This document shows, piece after piece, positions 1,369 to 48,548 of a DNA stretch of 64,000 bases. The DNA comes from Paenacidovorax monticola (GTDB lineage: Bacteria; Pseudomonadota; Gammaproteobacteria; Burkholderiales; Burkholderiaceae_C): assembly GCF_014489595.1 (NCBI RefSeq), contig NZ_CP060790.1, positions 3,224,001 through 3,288,000 of the forward strand, given 5' to 3'. Numbering within the stretch: position 1 is the stretch's first letter; every line of letters starts with the position of its first letter. The notes under the pieces were generated by a model. That model had not been told where the DNA came from. It saw only the letters and a program-made list of their open reading frames with translations, and ran no database searches. A program made the translations under genes and the position numbers.

Positions 1369-1384
1369 TGTTTCACGTGAAACC
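1369..1384. other. parS centromere-like site (ParB binding)
   Basis: The 16-mer TGTTTCACGTGAAACC matches the widely conserved ParB site TGTTTCACGTGAAACA at 15 of 16 positions, including the complete central palindrome GTTTCACGTGAAAC. It sits in the intergenic gap between mnmG (leftward) and the FMN reductase gene (rightward). In many bacteria mnmG is followed by rsmG and parA-parB close to the origin, so the position fits. Inference: this part of the chromosome belongs to the segregation centromere. Confidence 0.85.
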
Positions 1385-3992: not shown

Positions 3993-5104
3993 ATGCCTTC
4001 CCTTTTCGATCCCATCCAGGTCGGTGACCTGCACCTGACCAACCGCGTCGCCATGGCCCCGCTCACGCGCAACCGCTCGCCCCAGGCGGTGCCCGGCGAA
4101 CTCACAGCCACCTATTACGCCCAGCGCGCAAGCGCGGGCCTGCTGATCAGCGAGGCCACGGCCATCAGCCACCAGGGCCAGGGCTACGCCGACGTGCCGG
4201 GCCTGTACGGCACCGAGCAGCTCGATGGCTGGAAGCAGGCCACCGACGCCGTGCACCGCGCGGGCGGCAAGATCGTGGCCCAGCTCTGGCACGTGGGCCG
4301 CATCTCGCACACCGATCTGCAGCCCGACGGCGGCGCCCCCGTCGCACCCTCGGCCGTGCAGGCCAAAAGCAAGACTTTCCTCGTGGACCATGCCACCGGC
4401 ACGGGCCGCTTCGTGCCCACCTCGGCCCCACGCGCGCTGGGCGCAGAAGAGCTGCCCGGCATCGTGCACACCTATGCCGCGGCCGCGCGCAACGCGGTGG
4501 AGACGGCCGGCTTCGACGGCGTGGAGATCCACGCGGCCAACGGCTACCTGATCGACCAGTTCCTCAAGACCGGCGCCAACCAGCGCACGGACAGCTACGG
4601 CGGCAGCATCGAGAACCGTGCCCGCCTGCTGCTCGAAGTCACGCGCGCCGTGGTCGACGCCGTGGGCGCGGGCCGCGTGGGCATCCGCCTCTCGCCCGTC
4701 ACGCCCGCCAACGACATCGTGGACGCCGACCCGCAGCCGCTGTTCGAGTACGTGGTGCGCCAGCTCGCGCCGCTGGGCCTGGCCTTCGTCCATGTGATCG
4801 AGGGCGCCACGGGCGGCCCGCGCGAGCTGCCGGAGCGGCCCTTCGACTACGCCGCCTTCAAGGCCGCCTACCGCGATGCGGGGGCCGTGGCGCCTGGATC
4901 GTGAACAACGGCTACGACCGCGCGCTCGCCACCGAAGTGGTCGCCGACGGCCGTGCCGACATGGTCGCCTTCGGCAAGGCCTTCATCTCCAACCCCGACC
5001 TCGTGGCGCGCCTGCGCGACGACGCGCCGCTCAACCCGTGGGACCAGAGCACCTTCTACGGCGGCGGCGCCCAGGGCTACACGGACTACCCGGCGCTGGC
5101 CTGA
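3993..5104 (+). CDS. Old Yellow Enzyme-type NADH:flavin oxidoreductase, with a frameshift
   Basis: FMN-dependent alkene reductase of the NemA/xenobiotic reductase group, about 370 residues after correction. Visible landmarks are the N-terminal LFDPIQVGDLHLTNRVAMAP, the His/Asn pair in EIHAANGYLIDQFL, and QRTDSYGGSIENRARLLLE. Near 4881-4885 the reading frame breaks at a run of five G; a sixth G gives GGRGAWIVNNGYDR, which is the normal continuation, and the protein then ends ...QGYTDYPALA. The break is therefore probably a base-calling error. It likely reduces activated C=C bonds or nitro esters in the cytoplasm. Convergent with the histidine kinase gene. Confidence 0.9.
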
Positions 5105-38535: not shown

Positions 38536-40385
38536 ATGAATAAATTCTTCCGTGCAGCGGCTCTGCTGCTTTGCGCCCTCTCATTGGCGAGCCATGCTGC
38601 CAGCGACAAGCCGGTCTCCACCGTCATCGTTCTGCCAACCGATCTGAGCCAGAACCCCCGGATTGGAAGCCAGCTTCAAAACCGTGGCATCAATCACGCC
38701 ACGGTATACGTCAATTGGGCCGATGCCGAGCCCAAGGAAGGCGAGATCGACTTCTCGGCCTATGACCGGCAATTTGACCCACTCGTCAAGGACGGCCTGT
38801 CCCTCATCATCGTGCTGGACATGGGGGGACGCGTATATTTCGACAACGCCGGCAAGCTGCACCCTCACCTCACGACGGTTCCTGCATGGATGCGTGCAAA
38901 ACATCCTGAAGGCTTCATGAAGAACTTCTCCGGCGAGCCAACGGCTCAGCCCGACTTCATGAACACGAGCATTCGCAAACACTCTTCCCGGTTCCTTTCA
39001 CGCGCTGTCGAATACTTTTCGCAGCGCTATCCCCAGAAGGTCCTGGGCTATGCGATCGCCATCCAGGAAGAACATGAAATCAAATACGGCCAGAACGGCT
39101 ACCAGTGGCGCGACCATGGTGAAGCGGCCACCCGTGCTTTTCTCCAACAGACGGGCTCTCCTCTTCCCGTGATCAACTACAACAACTCCATCGCGACCGG
39201 ACTGCCAAAGCATGAGCCCTTGCTGCATGCGCACAAGAAATTCCGGGAAGACCGCCTGAAGGATGCCATCTGCTTCTATGCGGGCACCATCCGCGAGAAG
39301 GGCGGCACCGCCATGGGCTATTTTGCGGAAACGTTCACTTCGCACGATGCCATCTATGCCACGGGTGTCGTGGAGAACCTGGCCGAGTGCATCGACATTG
39401 CAGTCATCGACTACAACTTCTATGACGGCTACCGCCTGGTTCCTGATGCGGATGTACTACCCATGCTTGCGAGCTACATGGCATCCGTGGGCTACAAGAA
39501 GGTCATGGTCGGAGCGTACGCCGAGCGCTGGGAACTTCACAAGAAAACTGCGGAAATCATTCCCGTCATCAACCGCTCGATTTCCAAGGCGTTGATGCAG
39601 CCCCATGTCATAGGCTACGAAATCGGAGGCATACAGCGCCAAGAGGCCCCGGGCCAGCCCAGCACCGTGGACGTGGACAGACTGAAATCCATTGCCGTCA
39701 CGCAGGAAAAACAGCCCCTCCCCGGAGAAGGTAGATCTTCCCGCCTCCGCATCGGCATTTTGGGCTCGAGCAGTAATTTCTACACATGGCATGGGGATCG
39801 CAGTGGCGGAACTAATCCTCACAGGGATGCGCTGCTGCAGGCCTACAAAATTCTGAGCAGTCGCCCGGAACTTGACGTGCATGTGATCGGCGAGAAGAAT
39901 CTGCAAAAAGATGACGCCTTGCTTCAACAGCTGGATGCGGTTCTGATCCCCATCAGGCAGCTCTGCCTCAAACCCTCAAGTCCAGCCTTGCAGCCTATTG
40001 GAAAAACGGCGGTGCACTGATTCAGGACATGCGGCTGGGTGAGTTCGATGAAAATGGAAAACCCACTTTTGACTGGATGCACGAGGTGTTCGGCATTGCC
40101 AGCATTGATTGGCGACGCGGAAATATTTTCCTGCTTGAAGACGGAAAAATACTGCGCCTCAAGCCATCCCGGCGCTACACGGGATATGCATCGATGACCC
40201 CGCGCCCAGGTTACAAGATACTGGGAAAAGAGCTGCTCAACAAGCAGCGAGGCATCATGGTACGTGGAGAGAGAACCCTCGTTTTCGGGCTGACTCCCCA
40301 GCTTGTTGAAGACACGACCCGCGATGAATGGCACAAGCTCTTTGTGCAGGAAATCATCAACACCATTCCCTCCAGGGCACGGTGA
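38536..40385 (+). CDS. secreted glycoside-hydrolase-like protein (GH42/beta-galactosidase-type fold), with a frameshift
   Basis: About 616 residues after correction. A signal peptide (MNKFFRAAALLLCALSLASH, cut near SHA-A) is followed by a TIM-barrel-like domain with NHATVYVNWADAEPKEGEID and HPEGFMKNFSGEP, then a flavodoxin-like domain (RLRIGILGSSSNF) similar to the trimerisation domain of GH42 enzymes. A run of four C at 39948-39951 breaks the frame; a fifth C gives VLIPHQAALPQTLKSSLAAY and the downstream part (QDMRLGEFDENGKPTFDWMH). The substrate is unknown. Its base composition is lower in G+C than the neighbouring genes, suggesting transfer. A terminator stands directly before it. Confidence 0.7.
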
Positions 40386-40439
40386 ACACTTTATCGGCAT
40401 ATCGATTGCCCGTGATAGGGCATCGAGAATGCCGAAGAA

Positions 40440-40664
40440 CTACTGCCGGCGCAACGGCCACAGGCAGGCCAGCGCCAAGGCATTGAGTACTTCGCGCACA
40501 TCGTGTTGGCGTTGCGCTGCCTTCTCATCGTTCAGAGCCAAGCACGGCGCCATGAAGCTCCACTCCTCTTCCGATCCGTAAGATCTGTCGGGTACTGCTT
40601 GCGCCTTGCCAGCTTTGCCATGCGGCGAATCTACCGCAGGCGCTATCAGGTTCATAACACGCTC
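40440..40664 (-). pseudogene. remnant of an IS5-type transposase and its terminal repeat
   Basis: On the minus strand an ORF fragment (start 40655) reads YGSEEEWSFMAPCLALND and QHDVREVLNAL, which matches the N-terminal domain of IS5-family transposases, then ends after LWPLRRQ instead of entering the catalytic domain. Just upstream, GAGCGTGTTATGAAC (40650-40664) looks like the outer inverted repeat of such an element. No second end or target duplication was found, so this is a decayed fragment. It abuts the stop codon of the acyltransferase gene. Confidence 0.65.
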
Positions 40665-41698
40665 TATGTGCTGCTTTCGGGTTCCAAGGCCTTCGGAAGT
40701 TTTTCGGTTCTCTTCCTGGCCATGTTCATGAATGGTTGCTCGACCAATTTGTAGCTGATATAAGAAACAACAACAGTCGCAAAGAACGCCAGGAACGTCC
40801 GATGGTATTTATTCTGAGCCACATATGATGACAGAACAATCATTGGATAATGAATCAAATAGAATGAATAGGAAATATCCGAAAGCAACTTCACTGATTT
40901 CGGATTTTTATACTCCGTATCCTTGAGAATCAAGAAGAGCACAGAAATCCCCAGACCAGTAATAAAGATAGGCGTTGAAAATACTGGCTCCCAGGATTTA
41001 TAGAGGACAATAGTGGATATAAATATAGACAATAACGCAGCTTTATCGTACTTTGGCTGTTTGACAGCAATCCACGCGCCAAACAGGAAAAACGGCATCT
41101 GAGCTATTGCATTATTGTGTATGAAAAAATACACATATATGGCCTCCAGTCTATTCACCAATGGATGCCATCTTGTGCCACCATACACCCAGACACAGGC
41201 AATGAACACAAACAAGGCAGTGATCTTGGATGGGCTTTTGACAAATCTGCCGGCAATGAGAAAAGCGACGACATACCACACCATCTCGATAGTCAGTGTC
41301 CAGCTGACACTCAAGGCGTTGTATTTCAAATAAGCTTCAGGAAAAAAGTGCTGCAAAAAAAACAGATGAATCAAGAAGCTTTCCAGATCAAATGAATCAA
41401 TTTTCAAATCACCAAAAACAATGGAAAATACAAAAAACCAGAGCAGGTAGGCAGGATAGATTCTGAGCGCCCGGTGCCTTATATAGTCAGCCGCAGAATA
41501 TCGAATTGCGCTTTGGATGATCAGATATCCACTGATGACAAAGAATATCTGTACACCAATCCATCCCCCAGAAATTCCAAAATAGGGAACAGTGAGAACC
41601 TTCAACGAATGAAGGTGGTTCATGAAAACCAGAATCACTGCCACCGCTCTCAAAGTTTCAATCGAATGATTCTTTGATGCATGGACATTGCTATTCAT
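40664..41698 (-). CDS. acyltransferase-3 family membrane protein (OafA/YrhL-like)
   Basis: Polytopic membrane acyltransferase of 344 residues with about ten helices. The N-terminal family signature is IETLRAVAVILVFMNHLHSL (conserved Arg and His), followed by GGWIGVQIFFVISGYLI. Such enzymes O-acylate extracytoplasmic glycans such as O-antigen or exopolysaccharide. The gene is strongly A+T-rich and uses codons unlike the rest of the window (AAA, ATA, TTT common), so it was probably acquired. Its 3' end meets an IS5-type remnant. The acceptor glycan is unknown. Confidence 0.9.
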   Translation of the reverse strand: MNSNVHASKNHSIETLRAVAVILVFMNHLHSLKVLTVPYFGISGGWIGVQIFFVISGYLIIQSAIRYSAADYIRHRALRIYPAYLLWFFVFSIVFGDLKIDSFDLESFLIHLFFLQHFFPEAYLKYNALSVSWTLTIEMVWYVVAFLIAGRFVKSPSKITALFVFIACVWVYGGTRWHPLVNRLEAIYVYFFIHNNAIAQMPFFLFGAWIAVKQPKYDKAALLSIFISTIVLYKSWEPVFSTPIFITGLGISVLFLILKDTEYKNPKSVKLLSDISYSFYLIHYPMIVLSSYVAQNKYHRTFLAFFATVVVSYISYKLVEQPFMNMARKRTEKLPKALEPESST

Positions 41699-41920
41699 AC
41701 ATTATTCACATCAAAAAATCACGATTATTAAATAAAAATGACTTCATGTACCATGACAGCGCCTGAATAAACACACACAATTGGTTACATAATGTAAATA
41801 TCTTGCAAAATTCCGTCCGGAGCCGTTCGCCAGCGAGGGCATTTCTGCCCCCACCCGCTCGGCAGCTATTTACAACGGCACAAGGGTCCGTAGCAAGTCC
41901 TGTCCGTTCACGCCGGAAAC
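41699..41920. other. A+T-rich intergenic region at the right edge of the low-G+C island
   Basis: No gene is seen. Its right-hand part (about 41800 onward) returns to the high G+C of the surrounding chromosome; the left part is rich in runs of A and T and probably holds the acyltransferase promoter. Confidence 0.5.
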
Positions 41921-42718
41921 TCACCGCACGCGCACGCCCTGCTCCAACGCCAGCCGCGAGCGCGCCACGCCGAAAACCTGCTCGATGGCCAGGTCGGCCA
42001 CCTCTTTTGCCGTCTTCACATGGGCGGGATTGCGCTGCTCCACGCCCAGCCTGTACATCGTGAGGACATAGGCCCCGGTGATCCCGGCGGTCTCGAACAG
42101 TTCCTGGCGTTGCCGGTGGGACATCTGGACGAAGGCCGGCGTCTGCGCCAGTGCGTCGTTGAAATCGCCCAGGATCAGCTCCTGCTGTGCCTCGCTGAGT
42201 TCGGCGCCCCCATGGTGCACGTAGTGGGCCGTGGTGACCAGAAAGGTGAGCGCGCCGGCCACATTGCTGCCGAGCCGGGCCAGTTCGCCGCTGTCCTTGA
42301 GCAGCTGCAGGTACGCATCGAGGACGGCCTCGTAGGTCTTGCGCAATTCCGCCTGCTGGGCGGGTGCGCCCGATGCCGCCATGCGCGCGGGCATCACCGA
42401 TCCCCCGGTCCGCTCGAAATCCGTGGCGGCCAGCGGTGCCCGCGGCCTGGCCCCGGGCATCTGCGCGCCCGCAGGGCCGGTGCGTGGCAGCCGCCCCAGC
42501 ATCATGGTGTTGACGCTGCGGTACAAGCCCAGCGGCGACTGGTTGTTCCACAGGAACGGGCTCGACCCCGCGGCCGTCCAGCTCTGGGCCCGGGCGGCCG
42601 CCGGCAAGCCCAGCGCCACGGCCCCGGCCGCCCACGCCAGGCCCAGCAGCCGGCGCCGTTCGTTATTACAGGCCGTCTGGCCCACCCCAACGCGTGGGGT
42701 CCATTCGATGGTCTTCAT
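41921..42718 (-). CDS. predicted secreted protein of unknown function (DUF6683-like)
   Basis: Protein of 265 residues. The start at 42718 (MKTIEWTPRVGVGQTACNNE) leads to a signal sequence (LLGLAWAAGAVALGLPAAARAQ). The mature part holds a helical block (AELRKTYEAVLDAYLQLLKD and LSEAQQELILGDFNDALAQ) with Arg/Asp/Phe-rich helices, resembling the DUF6683 family. I do not know its role. Transcribed alone. Confidence 0.65.
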   Translation of the reverse strand: MKTIEWTPRVGVGQTACNNERRRLLGLAWAAGAVALGLPAAARAQSWTAAGSSPFLWNNQSPLGLYRSVNTMMLGRLPRTGPAGAQMPGARPRAPLAATDFERTGGSVMPARMAASGAPAQQAELRKTYEAVLDAYLQLLKDSGELARLGSNVAGALTFLVTTAHYVHHGGAELSEAQQELILGDFNDALAQTPAFVQMSHRQRQELFETAGITGAYVLTMYRLGVEQRNPAHVKTAKEVADLAIEQVFGVARSRLALEQGVRVR

Positions 42719-43200: not shown

Positions 43201-43430
43201 CAGGCCCTGTGGATAACTCTGGGCATGCGGCTGGAACAACCGCAGGGTTGTGCACAGGATGGGCGCCGCCTGCGATGTTGTCCCCAATCGGCGGCACCGC
43301 CGCACCCGCGGGCGTACACAGGGTTGGATCGATCGTAAGTCATTGTCGCTCCATGAAAAAACACAGTTGTCCACTGCAGTGCGACAGCTTCTATTACTAC
43401 GACTATGTATAAATATTAAAAACAAGGAAA
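43201..43430 (+). other. origin-like DnaA-box/DnaA-trio module, copy A
   Basis: Intergenic (DUF3297 to GNAT). Contains TGTGGATAA at 43208-43216 (perfect DnaA box on the minus strand), TTGTGCACA at 43248-43256 and TTGTCCACT at 43367-43375 (one and two mismatches to TTATCCACA), then 15 nt, CTATTACTACGACTAT at 43391-43406 and an A+T-rich stretch. Order and spacing equal those of copies B and C within one base. The two best-conserved boxes lie 182-183 and 142-143 bases upstream of the triplet run in all copies. Confidence 0.7.
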
Positions 43431-43433
43431 TTC

Positions 43434-43985
43434 ATGGAGCGCTCTTTTTCCCCTGAGACCGGCCCCGGAAGAACGGCCAGGACCCCGTCCGTGCGCGCCG
43501 AGCGGGATGGCGACGCCGAGGCCATCTTTCGCCTGACCGAGGCCGCCTTCCTGAACGCGCAGCACACCAGCCATACCGAGCAGTTCATCGTCGATGCGCT
43601 GCGCCGCCATGGGCAGCTGGCCGTTTCCCTGGTGGCGGTGGATGGCGGCCGCATCGTGGGCCATGTGGCCATTTCGCCTGTCACCCTCACCGGCGGCATG
43701 GCAGGGTGGCATGGGCTTGGGCCGATCTCCGTGCAACCGGAATACCAGGGCCGGGGCATCGGGTCCTTGCTGGCCAGGACCGCGCTGGACCAATTGCGAG
43801 GCCTGGGCGCCAAGGGCTGCGTGGTGTTGGGCGATCCCGCCTACTACGGGCGCTTCGGCTTTGTCCACAGCCCCGGCCTGGTGCTGCCAGGGGTGCCGCA
43901 GGAGTATTTCCAGGCCCTGCCGTTCAGCGGTGATGCCCCCCTGGGCGACGTGCGCTACCACGCGGCGTTCGACGCCGCTGCGTAA
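43434..43985 (+). CDS. GNAT family N-acetyltransferase (YhbS-like)
   Basis: Acetyltransferase of 183 residues. The acetyl-CoA-binding motif is VQPEYQGRGIGSLLARTAL, preceded by HVAISPVTLTGG and followed by VLGDPAYYGRFGF, the pattern of the YhbS group, whose substrate is not firmly known. The ATG at 43434 lies just after the A+T-rich end of origin-like module A, with an AAGGAAA ribosome site inside it, so transcription must start in or near the module. Its stop is four bases from the convergent spmAB gene. Confidence 0.88.
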   Translation: MERSFSPETGPGRTARTPSVRAERDGDAEAIFRLTEAAFLNAQHTSHTEQFIVDALRRHGQLAVSLVAVDGGRIVGHVAISPVTLTGGMAGWHGLGPISVQPEYQGRGIGSLLARTALDQLRGLGAKGCVVLGDPAYYGRFGFVHSPGLVLPGVPQEYFQALPFSGDAPLGDVRYHAAFDAAA

Positions 43986-43989
43986 GGCC

Positions 43990-45243
43990 TTAGCGCAGCA
44001 TCGCGTAGCCCACGCCGATCGCCGCCACGAGCCCTACCGCGTCGGCGAACAGCGCACAGGCCAGCGCGTGGCGTGTGTGCTTCACGCCCACACTGCCGAA
44101 GTACACGGCCAGCACGTAGAACGTGGTCTCGGTGGAGCCCTGGACGATCGCGGCCAGGCGGCCCGCGAACGAATCGACGCCATGGGTCTGCAGCACGTCG
44201 ATCATGAGACCGCGCGCGCCCGCGCCCGAGAGCACCTTCATGAGGCCCACGGGCAGCGCGGGCAGAAAAGCGGTGTCGAGCCCTGCCCAGGCCACGAGCG
44301 CTCCAATGGCGCCCAGCACCGCGTCCATGCAGCCCGCCGCGCGGAATACGCCGATGGCCACGAGGATGGCGATGAGGTAGGGCACGATCTGCACGGCCAC
44401 GCCGAAACCTTCCCTGGCACCGTCGATGAAGGCGTCGTACACGTTCACGCGCCGCCAGCTGCCCGCCAGCAAGAAGAGCAGCACCACGCCGAGGATGACG
44501 GCCGCGCCCGTGGTGCCCGCGATGCGCGCGGCCTGCTCGGCCGGCAGACGCTCCAGGGCCGTGACCGCCGCCGCCAGCAGGCCGCCCACGGCCAGCAACG
44601 GCACGAGAAAACGCGCGCGCCACAGCGGCAGGCGCTGGCACACCGCCACGGCCAGCACGCCCGCGAGCAGCGAGGCGAAGGTCACGAGCAGTGTGGGCAG
44701 GAAGATGTCGGCCGCATTGAAGCTGGCCCCCAGGCCCTGCTTGAGCGCCACGCTCTGGCGGATCGCGATCACCGAGGTGGGGATCAGCGTGAGCCCCGCC
44801 GTGTTCATGACCACGAACATGATCTGCGCATTGCTGGCCAGGTCAGGCCGGGTGGTGTTGAGCGCCTGCAGTTCGCGCATGGCCGTGAGGCCCAGCGGCG
44901 TGGCCGCGTTGTCCAGGCCCAGCAGGTTGGCCGAGATGTTCATGGTCATGGCGCCCTGCGCGGGGTGGCCCTGGGGTACGCCCGGAAACAGGCGGCGCAG
45001 CACGGGCCCGGCGACTCGGGCCAGCAGCTCCACCATGCCTGCGCGCTCGCCCACGCGCATCAGGCCCAGCCACAGCGCCATCACGCCGGCAAGGCCCAGC
45101 GAGATCTCGAAGCCCGTGCGCGCGCCGTCGAACATGGAAGCCAGCAGGGCCTGGAAGATGTTCGCCTCGCCCAGCGCCCAGCGCACCACCGCCGTGGCGC
45201 AGGCCGCCACGAAGAACCCCACCCACACCCAGTTCAATGCCAT
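43990..45243 (-). CDS. SpmA-SpmB fusion, nucleoside-recognition (Gate) domain membrane protein
   Basis: Polytopic membrane protein of 417 residues combining the two spore-maturation proteins SpmA and SpmB of Bacillus in one chain: SpmA part with NISANLLGLDNAATPLGL and ALNTTRPDLASNAQIMFVV; SpmB part with FGVAVQIVPYLIAILVAIG and IVQGSTETTFYVLAVYFGS. The fused form is common in non-sporulating proteobacteria. It has been proposed to be a transporter; the substrate is unknown. Confidence 0.9.
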   Translation of the reverse strand: MALNWVWVGFFVAACATAVVRWALGEANIFQALLASMFDGARTGFEISLGLAGVMALWLGLMRVGERAGMVELLARVAGPVLRRLFPGVPQGHPAQGAMTMNISANLLGLDNAATPLGLTAMRELQALNTTRPDLASNAQIMFVVMNTAGLTLIPTSVIAIRQSVALKQGLGASFNAADIFLPTLLVTFASLLAGVLAVAVCQRLPLWRARFLVPLLAVGGLLAAAVTALERLPAEQAARIAGTTGAAVILGVVLLFLLAGSWRRVNVYDAFIDGAREGFGVAVQIVPYLIAILVAIGVFRAAGCMDAVLGAIGALVAWAGLDTAFLPALPVGLMKVLSGAGARGLMIDVLQTHGVDSFAGRLAAIVQGSTETTFYVLAVYFGSVGVKHTRHALACALFADAVGLVAAIGVGYAMLR

Positions 45244-45298
45244 GGCCTGCGATGGTAGCGGCTGGCGGAAGCTGGACGGCGCGGGTCAATGCACAGGA

Positions 45299-46315
45299 TC
45301 AGAACGGCGCGGAGCCGGGGTCGGTGTCCACAGGCGCCTCGGCCGGGCCCGTGATGGTGCCGCCGCGCGAGGATGACCGGGCGGCCGCGGGCGTGGCCGA
45401 AGCCGTGGGTGCCGCGCCGCCGATCTCGGTGCGCCCTTCCCCGCCCAGGGCCTCGATCAGATCGGGGATCAGCTTGGACAGCTCGCCGGTGGCGATGGCC
45501 ACGTCGGTATCGAAGCCCTGGTCGTCGGGCGCCTGGCCCTCGAACACCGAATCAAGAAACGCGATCTTCTTGATCTGCAGCCCCTCGCTGAGCACGAACG
45601 ACACCCGGTCGTCCCAGGTCAGCGCCAGCTTGGTGGGCAGCTTGCCGGCCTCGATGTGGGCGCGCACCTCGTCGATGTCGAGCGGGTGGCGCGCATAGCG
45701 CACCACGGCCTTGGATTCGTCGGCGCTCTTGAGTTCGCACTCGCGGTCCACCGTGAAGCCCACGGGCGGCTCCTGCTCCTTGAGCCAGTGCGACATGGCG
45801 GCCTGTGGAGAAGTCTGGGTGTCGAGCAGCGCCACCGCGAAGCCGGGCAGCAGTTCCACCAGCAGGCTCACCACTTCGTCGGCCCGCGACTGGCTGCCCG
45901 TGTCGAGCACCAGCCAATGGGCCTCGGGGTCGATCCAGACCCACATCGAGCCCTGCTTGGTGAAGGCCATGGGCAGCAGGTCGAGCTTGGCTTCTTCCTT
46001 GAGCTCCTTGCTTTCCTTCTTGCCGGGCTTGCGGCCAGTCTCGGCCTCGATGCGCGCGGCCTTTTCCTTCACCTTGCGCGCCAGCACCGAGCCCGGCAGC
46101 ATCTTGGACTCGACCATGAAGCGCAGTATCCACTGCCCGCCCACCGATTCGGCCAGCAGCCCATGCTGCTCGCCACGCGGCGGGACCCAGCCCAGCGACT
46201 TCTCCTGCGTGGCGCCGCATTCGGCGAACGGCGACTTGGCCAGCGCCTCTTCCAACTGCTCCAGCGAACCCTGCCATTGCGGTGCAATGCGGTACACGAT
46301 CATGTTCTTGAACAC
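45299..46315 (-). CDS. rdgC: recombination-associated protein RdgC
   Basis: DNA-binding ring protein of 338 residues that modulates RecA-dependent recombination and exonuclease activity. Family blocks are FKNMIVYRIAP, ECGATQEKSLGWVPPRGE, LDLLPMAFTKQGSMWVWIDP and DDRVSFVLSEGLQIKKIAFL. The GTG start at 46315 is chosen because RdgC proteins begin (M)FKN; an ATG four codons later would cut the conserved N-terminus. The C-terminal tail rich in Ala/Ser/Pro is a usual variable end. It lies between the origin-like modules A and B. Confidence 0.94.
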   Translation of the reverse strand: MFKNMIVYRIAPQWQGSLEQLEEALAKSPFAECGATQEKSLGWVPPRGEQHGLLAESVGGQWILRFMVESKMLPGSVLARKVKEKAARIEAETGRKPGKKESKELKEEAKLDLLPMAFTKQGSMWVWIDPEAHWLVLDTGSQSRADEVVSLLVELLPGFAVALLDTQTSPQAAMSHWLKEQEPPVGFTVDRECELKSADESKAVVRYARHPLDIDEVRAHIEAGKLPTKLALTWDDRVSFVLSEGLQIKKIAFLDSVFEGQAPDDQGFDTDVAIATGELSKLIPDLIEALGGEGRTEIGGAAPTASATPAAARSSSRGGTITGPAEAPVDTDPGSAPF

Positions 46316-46634
46316 GCGAAACCTTTGTGTTGTGTGGTGTGATGGAAAAACCAGGGTCGCCATTGTCGGCGCAGGCCCGGGACCGCTCGGAACGGCAGCG
46401 TCCCCTTTCGAGGATCAATGCACCTGAATTGATAGCTGCACGTGCCTGTGGGCACTGCGCATGCGGGGGTTTTTCACCAGATCCCACCAGCGTGCGGCCC
46501 GCGAGCTTCTTGTCACAACTTTACACAGCCTCACGAATGGCTCACTGCGGCGTTACAACAGCGGCGCACACTGGCTTCCAACCGCCGGCACGGTCGTTCC
46601 GGCGGGCACCTCACCGCAACGAAAGGAACCCACC
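46316..46634. other. divergent intergenic region between rdgC and the Spy-like gene
   Basis: 319 bases without a gene. Near 46509-46530 are two similar stretches (TTGTCACAACT, TTTACACAGCC) that could be half-sites of a response regulator for the Spy-like gene. Around 46431-46475, ATTGATAGCTGC followed by a GC-rich hairpin resembles a decayed copy of the 47-bp repeat family. Neither is certain. Confidence 0.4.
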
Positions 46635-47195
46635 ATGGCTCTCTTCCCGCACCGCCTGACGTCCACCGCCGCCGCCACGGCGCTGCTCGCTGCCCTGGCC
46701 CTGCCAGCCCTGGCCCAGCCCGCAGCCGCGCCCGCTCCCGCGGCATCGGCCACTTCCGAGGCGCGCCACGGCCGCATGCACGAGATGCGCAAGGACCGGA
46801 TGGCCAAGCACGCGGCCGAACTCAAGGCCAAGCTGCAGCTCACCCCCGCACAGGAAGGCGCCTGGACCACCTTCACCGAGGCCATGAAGCCGCAGCAGGG
46901 CAACGCCCGCCTGGATTTCCAGGACCTGCGCAGCCTCTCCACGCCCGAACGCATCGACCGCATGCGCGCCATGCGTGCCCAGCGTGCGGCCGAGGCCGAC
47001 CGCCGGGGCGAGGCCACCAAGGCCTTCTATGCCCAGTTGTCCCCCGCGCAGCAAAAGACCTTCGACGAGCAGTCGATGCACATGATGGGCCGCATGCACC
47101 GCATGGAGCACCGCCACGAAGGCGGCCACCACGGCATGGGCATGCAGGGCCGCCCGCCCATGGGCAAGGGAGCCCCGGCCCCGGCACAGCAATAA
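46635..47195 (+). CDS. Spy/CpxP-like LTXXQ-motif periplasmic protein
   Basis: Periplasmic protein of 186 residues with a signal peptide (TAAATALLAALALPALAQ). The helical mature part has two LTXXQ-type motifs, LQLTPAQEGAW and AQLSPAQQKTF, which define the Spy/CpxP family of envelope-stress chaperones and metal-responsive proteins. The C-terminus is rich in His and Met (MHMMGRMHRMEHRHEGGHH), suggesting metal binding. The start at 46635 has a GAAAGGA ribosome site. No linked two-component system is nearby. Confidence 0.85.
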   Translation: MALFPHRLTSTAAATALLAALALPALAQPAAAPAPAASATSEARHGRMHEMRKDRMAKHAAELKAKLQLTPAQEGAWTTFTEAMKPQQGNARLDFQDLRSLSTPERIDRMRAMRAQRAAEADRRGEATKAFYAQLSPAQQKTFDEQSMHMMGRMHRMEHRHEGGHHGMGMQGRPPMGKGAPAPAQQ

Positions 47196-47280
47196 GGGCG
47201 GCGCACGGGCCACGGCCCGTGCAATCCTCGCGCGGCAGGGCTACACTGGGTTTACAACCTGTGTGTCGAGGCCGCGCACC

Positions 47281-47847
47281 ATGTGGAAATACCAACAACC
47301 TCGCCTCCGCGTGTCCCTGGCAATGCTGCTGGCGGCCCTTGCGGCTCCAGCCGGCGCCCAATCGCTGGACACCGACTCCCCCTCGCTCTACTTTCAGGCT
47401 GCCCGAGCGCGCCATGGCAACGACGCCTGGACCCTGGGCCTGACCCTGCCCTGGCGTAGCTGGAGCCGCCCGCTGTGGGGTGGCGAGCTGCGCGGCCACT
47501 GGGACCTGTGGGCCAGCCAGTGGGCCGCCGACGGGCCGGCAGGCCGGACCCACACCACCGTGGTGGGCCTGTCGCCCACGCTGCGCCTGCGTCCCGACCA
47601 GGGCCGTTCGGCCTGGTTCATGGAGGGCGGCATCGGCGCCAGCTACATGGACCGCCTCTACACGGCGGGCGACAAGGCATTCAGCACGCGCTTCAACTTC
47701 GCCTCGCACATCGGCGTGGGCGTGAACTGGGGCGCGCGGCGCCAGCACGAACTGGTGCTGCGGCTGCAGCATGTCTCCAACGCCGACATCAAGAAGCCCA
47801 ACCCCGGCGAAGACTTCGTACAGCTGCGCTACGCCCTGCATTTCTAG
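47281..47847 (+). CDS. pagL: PagL-like lipid A 3-O-deacylase
   Basis: Outer-membrane beta-barrel hydrolase of 188 residues, the usual size. The signal peptide is AMLLAALAAPAGAQ. Near the C-terminus the catalytic pattern LQHVSNADIKKPNPGEDFVQ contains the His-x-Ser pair and a downstream Glu as in PagL, and the last residue is Phe, the outer-membrane insertion signal. It removes the 3-linked acyl chain of lipid A. The ATG at 47281 is used; the upstream ATG at 47263 would only lengthen the n-region. Confidence 0.88.
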   Translation: MWKYQQPRLRVSLAMLLAALAAPAGAQSLDTDSPSLYFQAARARHGNDAWTLGLTLPWRSWSRPLWGGELRGHWDLWASQWAADGPAGRTHTTVVGLSPTLRLRPDQGRSAWFMEGGIGASYMDRLYTAGDKAFSTRFNFASHIGVGVNWGARRQHELVLRLQHVSNADIKKPNPGEDFVQLRYALHF

Positions 47848-47867
47848 GGCCAGGGCGGCCCCCAGGC

Positions 47868-48105
47868 GCCCATTTGTGGATAACCCTGGGGGCATTGCTG
47901 GCACAAGATGGGGTTTATCCACAGCGCCGCACGATCGGCGCAAGTTGTTCCTGTCCGGCGCCACGGTTGCACCCTGCCCTGGCCACAGCGTTGGAGGGCT
48001 CCCAAGCCCTTGTCACCATTGAGAAAAGCGGGCTTACCCACAGAAAATGGCGGGCTCTACTACTACCACTATGTATTTATAAACTCATCAAGGAATAACA
48101 AACCC
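47868..48105 (+). other. origin-like DnaA-box/DnaA-trio module, copy B
   Basis: Two perfect DnaA boxes: TGTGGATAA (47875-47883, minus strand) and TTATCCACA (47915-47923); then TTACCCACA (48034-48042, one mismatch), 14 nt, CTACTACTACCACTAT (48057-48072) and an A+T-rich stretch (48071-48105). Read on the other strand, the triplet run is ATAGTGGTAGTAGTAG, the repeated TAG pattern of DnaA-trios. Every landmark recurs exactly 372 bases downstream in copy C. Confidence 0.75.
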
Positions 48106-48239
48106 CGAAGCCACCGCCCTGGACACACCTCCTCGCCAGACTCTGGCCCCAGGGGAATCGGTGCGCCGGAACGAATCCGGAGCGCCTGTGTTCCGCTCTC
48201 CCAAAGAGCGCCCCTTCGGGGCGAAGGTGTCCCAGCGCA

Positions 48240-48470
48240 GGCATTGCGAGAACAACCCTGGGGACATTTCCGGCACAACCGGGCGGATATCCACAGAAAA
48301 CCGCAACGCATGCGTTTTGTCCCCGTTCGCAGAACAGCGGAGCCGGGGCATGGCCCACAGGGTTGGGCAAGGTCCAAGTCCCTGATCCTGTAGGGAAAAA
48401 ATGAGTTATCCACAGAAATTTACCGCCTCTACTACTACCACTATTCCTTTATAAAAAATACAAGAGGAAA
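48240..48470 (+). other. origin-like DnaA-box/DnaA-trio module, copy C
   Basis: ATATCCACA (48287-48295, one mismatch) and a perfect TTATCCACA (48406-48414), 14 nt, CTACTACTACCACTAT (48429-48444), then an A+T-rich stretch (48445-48465). AACCCTGGGGACATT and GGCACAACC align with copy B, and TTGTCCCC and CACAGGGTTGG with copy A. The gap 48106-48239 between B and C holds only a GC hairpin (CGCCCC/GGGGCG, 48209-48223). Confidence 0.75.
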
Positions 48471-48548
48471 GACAGGGACAACCGCGCCGTGCGTGCAGGG
48501 AGGGCGGGCACGGCATGCGCCCCGTCGCCACGGCCTTCGCAAAAGGGG

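Follow-up and report, generated by a model that had tools for sequence, protein, structure and literature searches.

Three copies of a dnaA-dnaN-type block, set apart from dnaA, as the probable chromosomal origin of Paenacidovorax monticola

We analyzed a window of 64,000 nucleotides from Paenacidovorax monticola (positions 3,224,001-3,288,000 of its single 4,679,990-base contig; coordinates below are window positions unless they are referred to a contig or genome) that holds three copies of an ordered block, modules A, B, and C, in each of which DnaA boxes precede a DnaA-trio run that is followed by an A+T-rich stretch. The A-B-C cluster is very probably the chromosomal origin of replication (oriC), representing the block that relatives carry between dnaA and dnaN and that lies here, in three copies, 52-57 kb away from dnaA. 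The evidence for this consists of the homology of the modules to dnaA-dnaN blocks, the absence of any such block at the genome's own dnaA, a geometry conserved among relatives, and a step in strand asymmetry at the modules in most of the genomes tested.

Module architecture and homology to dnaA-dnaN blocks

The original prediction described three collinear modules of boxes, trio, and A+T-rich stretch, and this arrangement is present at a level beyond simulated chance. The combined box and trio unit, observed three times, appeared in none of 300 block-wise order-2 simulations of the window, and exact boxes, observed four times, averaged 0.03 per simulated window with a maximum of 1. The four perfect matches to TTATCCACA lie at the places given for them (43208 and 47875 on the minus strand, 47915 and 48406 on the plus strand), and the boxes keep the offsets from the trio that had been described (-183, -143, and -24 in A; -182, -142, and -23 in B and C). 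The third box was said to end 14-15 nt before the trio, and the spacers indeed measure 15 bp in A and 14 bp in both B and C. With its four mismatches, the far box of module C is therefore only vestigial. The 30 bases past the trio are 73-80% A+T, compared with 31% A+T in the window as a whole, and the first three units of each lower-strand trio run carry a middle A, as read from the sequence.

A previous study, in its passages on the search for the basal unwinding system (BUS), required a DnaA box with at most two mismatches, a spacer of at most 16 bp, and at least three trio (NAN) units, and predicted a BUS in 1755 of 2070 origins (85%) (PMC8287927). Modules A, B, and C each satisfy this rule, with box mismatches of 2, 1, and 0, respectively. 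Another set of oriC criteria (PMC4403523) includes at least three boxes with one mismatch or fewer; at this limit, B has three, C has two, and A has one, with B and C jointly holding five. The same set names a replication-related gene nearby, and none was found beside the modules, whose neighbors are DUF3297, GNAT, Gate, rdgC, LTXXQ, pagL, MerR, and GGDEF/EAL genes.

We compared the modules with the rest of the genome by pattern and by profile. At up to two mismatches, the trio pattern occurs in the whole contig at the three module places and, with two mismatches, at one place elsewhere, while the same pattern read backward as a control gave 22 matches, so that the looser trio pattern by itself is not rare; at one mismatch or fewer, the counts were 3 and 0. 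Trio-pattern matches in seven of twelve matching genomes (G028, G006, G026, G031, G047, G059, and G046) were set aside as chance-like, having no near box at one mismatch or fewer. Nine modules taken from five genomes aligned with hardly any gaps across 231 columns, and the resulting profile of the block (R1) gave three strong matches on the contig and two marginal ones (E 0.001, on the opposite strand over A, and E 0.003). No further strong copy was found with R1 in the 4.68-Mb contig, and the genome-wide count that the original prediction had suggested stands, for strong copies, at A, B, and C.

A second profile (R2) was built solely from 18 blocks of 17 relatives located between dnaA and dnaN. 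DnaA and DnaN flank the block on either side in 17 of these 18 dnaA-linked loci (tblastn), and the eighteenth (G257) sits at one end of a contig whose other end carries dnaA. In a search of 671 kb of this genome that took in the dnaA region, R2 recovered C, B, and A (E values in Table 1) and nothing besides them up to E 10. It also matched every named locus tested (33 of 33, from a total of 53; 62 matches) and gave no match in two unrelated loci of the own genome, L004 and L006. From these matches to the modules and to the named loci, profile comparison places the displaced modules in one family with the dnaA-dnaN blocks.

Of 299 genomes sampled from the family, 285 gave a match to R1 at E<=1e-3. 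Among 58 near-complete genomes (at most three contigs) picked from this sample, dnaA was found in all and a block at E<=1e-5 in 56. In 15 of these 56, only 1-112 bp separate the block from the dnaA 3' end, and it is always on the dnaA strand; in one it lies at 3.5 kb, and in 40 it is 16-459 kb away (median 81 kb), being the sole copy found in 17 of the 40. The order of boxes and triplets is kept across genera, and the loss in relatives that the original prediction had named as a refutation was not seen. Over 127 modules, all taken from loci where neither DnaA nor DnaN was matched, column information amounts to 1.70 bits for the trio, 1.76 for the near box, 1.78 for the -142 box, and 1.29 for the -182 box, with a mean column of 0.85.

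Beyond the family sample, R2 was run on 150 genomes of the order, of which 28, counting the own genome, matched at E<=1e-4, many of them weakly. A strict pattern of box, spacer, and trio found 53 stretches in 84,980 species genomes, in records titled as Acidovorax, Paracidovorax, Paenacidovorax, Comamonas, Delftia, Diaphorobacter, Variovorax, Hydrogenophaga, Pseudorhodoferax, Melaminivora, and Alicycliphilus, or as Comamonadaceae, Burkholderiales, and Proteobacteria bins. Outside these titles there were two records, Pantoea sp. 18069 and Abyssibacter sp. The Pantoea record (L171) shows a Comamonadaceae-type module and neighbors, including an RdgC 72% identical to that of the window, and is probably misnamed. 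In the Abyssibacter bin (L215, a gammaproteobacterial genus), a 33-bit block at 4333-4561 is flanked by matches to DnaA and DnaN, a hint that the block arose before the family did. In genera g29 and g68, five genomes (G028, G165, G305, G174, and G248) had no match at E<=1e-3 and three (G242, G067, and G310) matched weakly; the origins of these genera may have diverged.

The dnaA gene of P. monticola lies at 3,324,886-3,326,304 of the contig on the minus strand, 52.4-57.5 kb from the modules. The dnaA-dnaN gap spans 130 bp, and the rpmH-dnaA gap upstream of dnaA, read by eye, has two DnaA boxes and no trio run. Neither R1 nor R2 matched the dnaA region of this genome, and the comparison proposed in the original prediction thus revealed no counterpart there. 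Since no such block exists at the own dnaA, the modules are a displaced block and do not duplicate an oriC located at dnaA. For the same reason, the roles suggested earlier (e.g. accessory origin, titration site, or copy of the true oriC) fit less well, while the reading as boxes, trio, and A+T-rich stretch is supported by the BUS rule and the homology to the dnaA-dnaN blocks of relatives.

Table 1. Features of modules A, B, and C and the neighboring rdgC gene (window positions; offsets are relative to the trio run)
Feature	Position	Strand	Remarks
Module A	43204..43430	+	R1 E 2.0e-40 (own genome); R2 76.6 bits, E 5.3e-22
Module A far DnaA box	43208..43216	-	0 mismatches, -183
Module A middle DnaA box TTGTGCACA	43248..43256	+	2 mismatches, -143
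Module A trio-proximal DnaA box TTGTCCACT	43367..43375	+	2 mismatches, -24
Module A DnaA-trio run	43391..43406	-	3'-GAT-5' units on lower strand
Module A A+T-rich stretch	43407..43436	.	80% A+T
rdgC gene	45299..46363	-	Pfam RdgC E 2.2e-111; between A and B; synteny kept in relatives
Module B	47871..48096	+	Between PagL gene and module C; R1 E 2.8e-43; R2 88.5 bits, E 1.2e-25
Module B far DnaA box	47875..47883	-	0 mismatches, -182
Module B middle DnaA box	47915..47923	+	0 mismatches, -142
Module B trio-proximal DnaA box TTACCCACA	48034..48042	+	1 mismatch, -23
Module B DnaA-trio run	48057..48072	-	Lower strand
Module B A+T-rich stretch	48073..48102	.	77% A+T
Module C	48242..48465	+	Between module B and MerR gene; R1 E 1.3e-41; R2 103.6 bits, E 2.7e-30
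Module C far box, degenerate	48247..48255	-	4 mismatches, -182
Module C middle DnaA box ATATCCACA	48287..48295	+	1 mismatch, -142
Module C trio-proximal DnaA box	48406..48414	+	0 mismatches, -23
Module C DnaA-trio run	48429..48444	-	Lower strand
Module C A+T-rich stretch	48445..48474	.	73% A+T

Strand asymmetry and the weighing of explanations

Because raw GC skew by itself did not tell modules and dnaA apart in this genome, we trained a k-mer strand-asymmetry score on 19 stretches of it, none between 3.062 and 3.51 Mb; the score was right for 74 of 76 five-kb pieces with their stretch left out. Eight of the 40 distant-block genomes were tested, namely this one and seven of large distance (G091 and G260, also with large distances, were left out). 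In all eight, the step at the module exceeded the step at dnaA, both by k-mer score (mean +0.80 at the module and -0.15 at dnaA) and by GC skew (mean +0.050 and -0.021; Wilcoxon p=0.0039 for each measure). Steps of at least 0.7 were seen for 6 of 8 module steps, compared with 4 of 79 other steps between neighboring stretches. The clearest cases are G076, with its module 459 kb from dnaA, and G267, which behaves similarly at 179 kb. The 16 stretches sampled in G076 between 1.106 and 1.784 Mb, a span that includes dnaA at 1.33 Mb, are all negative; the next stretch, from 1.787 Mb, scores +0.84 at the module, and the score drops to about zero rightward. In the P. monticola window, GC skew is -0.099 over 46-48 kb and +0.016 over 48-50 kb, turning at modules B and C, and the contig as sampled changes from negative to positive skew at about 3.26 to 3.32 Mb. 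A KOPS-like polarised octamer was also tried as a marker of direction and was too sparse to decide. Placement at a strand-asymmetry switch, a further oriC criterion (PMC4403523), thus holds for the modules, with G025, G090, and the blurred right edge in this genome as exceptions.

Several observations weigh against a displaced origin at the modules. R1 had no match at E<=1e-3 in 14 of the 299 sampled family genomes, and no block was found at E<=1e-5 in two of the 58 near-complete ones. R1, the profile by which the dnaA-adjacent blocks were found, contains A, B, and C, although it has no bearing on the location of those blocks between dnaA and dnaN, and training of the k-mer score was limited to this one genome. 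Here, the asymmetry change is blurred rightward and stays near zero over about 3.274-3.35 Mb, with the GC-skew minimum of a 291-kb stretch at 3,306,699, between the modules and dnaA, and the k-mer minimum in the bin at 3,339,001, beyond dnaA. Moreover, the module step is absent in G025 (+0.01) and small in G090 (+0.15), whose asymmetry profiles, like that of G235, are noisy along their length, and of two dnaA-linked controls, G298 showed the step and G114 did not.

The blurred right edge of the asymmetry change takes in dnaA and, together with the DnaA boxes in the rpmH-dnaA gap, would agree with a real origin at dnaA and modules that serve as DnaA titration or reactivation sites or as DnaA-controlled promoter elements. 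We consider this very improbable, as the modules contain complete predicted unwinding elements, no block exists at the own dnaA, and the larger step fell at dnaA in none of the eight genomes. DnaA control sites of the datA/DARS type are box clusters without an unwinding element, whereas each module has a predicted one. A mobile or phage-derived repeat mimicking an origin would account for copies that multiply and change place, but is scarcely credible given the homology to the dnaA-dnaN gap and the ordinary chromosomal genes that flank the modules and are kept in relatives; window positions 47840-48500, covering B and C only, also had no match in 50,697 phage records.

Copies, their history, and a proposed mechanism

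Two or three copies are present in 23 of 40 displaced origins and in 2 of 15 origins at dnaA, one of the latter being G275. All copies share the same orientation in 21 of the 23 multi-copy displaced genomes, the exceptions being G172 and G309. In G172, G309, and G247 (genus g63), modules of opposite orientation lie 46, 20, and 10 kb apart. Modules at the A site, recognized by its DUF3297 and Gate genes, occur in several genera, and modules at the B/C site, between LTXXQ/pagL and GGDEF-EAL genes near rdgC, occur in many named genomes.

A quick tree of 140 modules (the 127 above plus 13 of the 18 dnaA-linked ones; 19 rows labelled 'other' by their neighbors) groups module C of the window with second tandem copies of G197, G104, and Paracidovorax wautersii (Shimodaira-Hasegawa-like approximate likelihood ratio test, SH-aLRT, 95). 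On the strength of this supported group, the B/C pair is, in terms of module phylogeny, older than these genomes. Module B falls nearest to first copies, without support. The A-site modules are clustered overall (3 label changes compared with 15.3 when shuffled), and module A of the window stands outside their cluster, its nearest rows being B-site or unlabelled with low support (65 and 36). For A, it is the shared place alone that would speak for antiquity. The idea that A, B, and C all occupy old orthologous positions was rejected, as the tree supports C only.

These copies raise the question of how many of them function. It is conceivable, though we lean against it, that a single module works, perhaps B or C, the rest being duplicates in decay that contribute no more than additional boxes or DnaA titration. 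This would be in keeping with the single-copy state of 17 of 40 displaced origins, with the weaker module A (76.6 bits; two boxes with two mismatches), with the missing far box of C, and with the position of module A on the tree, apart from the A-site modules that other genera carry. Against it, the supported position of C means that the B/C pair predates these genomes, A-site modules recur beside DUF3297 and Gate genes, and all three modules have retained the trio and the near box, whereas decay would be expected of relics. At the other extreme, a naturally multi-origin chromosome, in which oriC left dnaA and gave rise to two or three complete origins that each fire and have remained separate over many genera, seems to us rather unlikely. 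Our guess is that the modules act jointly as one multi-part predicted origin.

Following the BUS model, we hypothesize that DnaA would bind the boxes of a module and be guided over the spacer of 14-15 bp to reach the 3'-GAT-5' trio units of the lower strand. A DnaA filament formed there would melt the trio along with the A+T-rich stretch, and loading of the replicative helicase would follow at the melted module. As to how the displaced A-B-C origin arose, we infer that the dnaA-dnaN oriC may have been copied elsewhere, lost at dnaA, and then multiplied locally. In G275 (contig C1), one block lies beside dnaA and another 28.7 kb away in opposite orientation (2357451 and 2386120), and this genome likely represents an intermediate step of origin displacement.

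The surroundings of the modules offer some further observations. Module A has the DUF3297 gene on one side and GNAT and Gate genes on the other, and it overlaps, with its first part, the 5' end of the longest DUF3297 open reading frame (ORF); five genes (GNAT, Gate, rdgC, LTXXQ, and pagL) separate it from B. The rdgC gene adjoins modules in many Comamonadaceae; it is a conserved neighbor and not part of the predicted origin. A low-G+C stretch at about 39000-42600 (down to 0.475), next to module A, is possibly an island, and an ORF within it (40664-41698) appears by eye to be membrane acyltransferase-like. The contig's only three parS-like sites (at most two mismatches to the motif) lie at window positions 1369-1384 (genome 3225369) and at genome positions 3222655 and 3223775, together about 42-50 kb left of the modules, placing the modules between the parS-like sites and dnaA.

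Relation to described origins and significance

The origins of Escherichia coli and Caulobacter lie away from dnaA. Within the Burkholderiales, to which Cupriavidus metallidurans belongs by taxonomy look-up, a study of 2010 places the skew transition of chromosome 1 of strain CH34 about 90 kb from dnaA-dnaN-gyrB, by 213 nt with three perfect DnaA boxes (PMC2864759), and a displaced origin as such is therefore already known. Like the P. monticola modules, the CH34 origin lies away from dnaA, whereas a trio, homology to a dnaA-dnaN block, and a repeated module are not described in the passages of that study on CH34 (PMC2864759). Putative double origins were reported by Gao in 2015, for instance in Ralstonia pickettii 12D with copies at dnaA and hemE, 291 kb apart, the hemE site of Caulobacter also being named (PMC4403523). 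These likewise place two origin candidates on one chromosome, but without a repeated ordered module (PMC4403523).

The modules share with the oriC of the BUS study the rule of box, spacer, and trio, and differ from what its passages describe in that three complete units lie in one region with no adjacent replication gene (PMC8287927). The bipartite origins of Helicobacter pylori and Bacillus subtilis are likewise split into box clusters with genes between them; in the passages describing them, the unwinding element lies in one of two sub-regions and the spacer is usually dnaA (PMC8235120, PMC4285127). In contrast, A, B, and C each carry a predicted unwinding element (trio plus A+T-rich stretch), and the spacer consists of GNAT, Gate, rdgC, LTXXQ, and pagL, with dnaA 52-57 kb off. 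Several complete units in one origin region are thus a departure from divided origins as described in these passages. Among the literature matches listed, with subscription journals mostly outside them, we found no report of a displaced or multi-copy oriC across Comamonadaceae, nor of the family-wide dnaA-dnaN homology and the repeated complete modules. For Acidovorax citrulli M6, Ori-Finder was used, and the passages concerned are silent on the place of the origin relative to dnaA.

Genomes are often numbered from dnaA. If our interpretation is true, many Comamonadaceae chromosomes have their origin somewhere other than at dnaA, and the family would constitute a natural series for origin movement, with the block at dnaA-dnaN, at both places (G275), or away from dnaA in one to three copies. 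More generally, the question of more than one origin per chromosome would become testable in ordinary strains, with the chromosome of P. monticola as a natural case.

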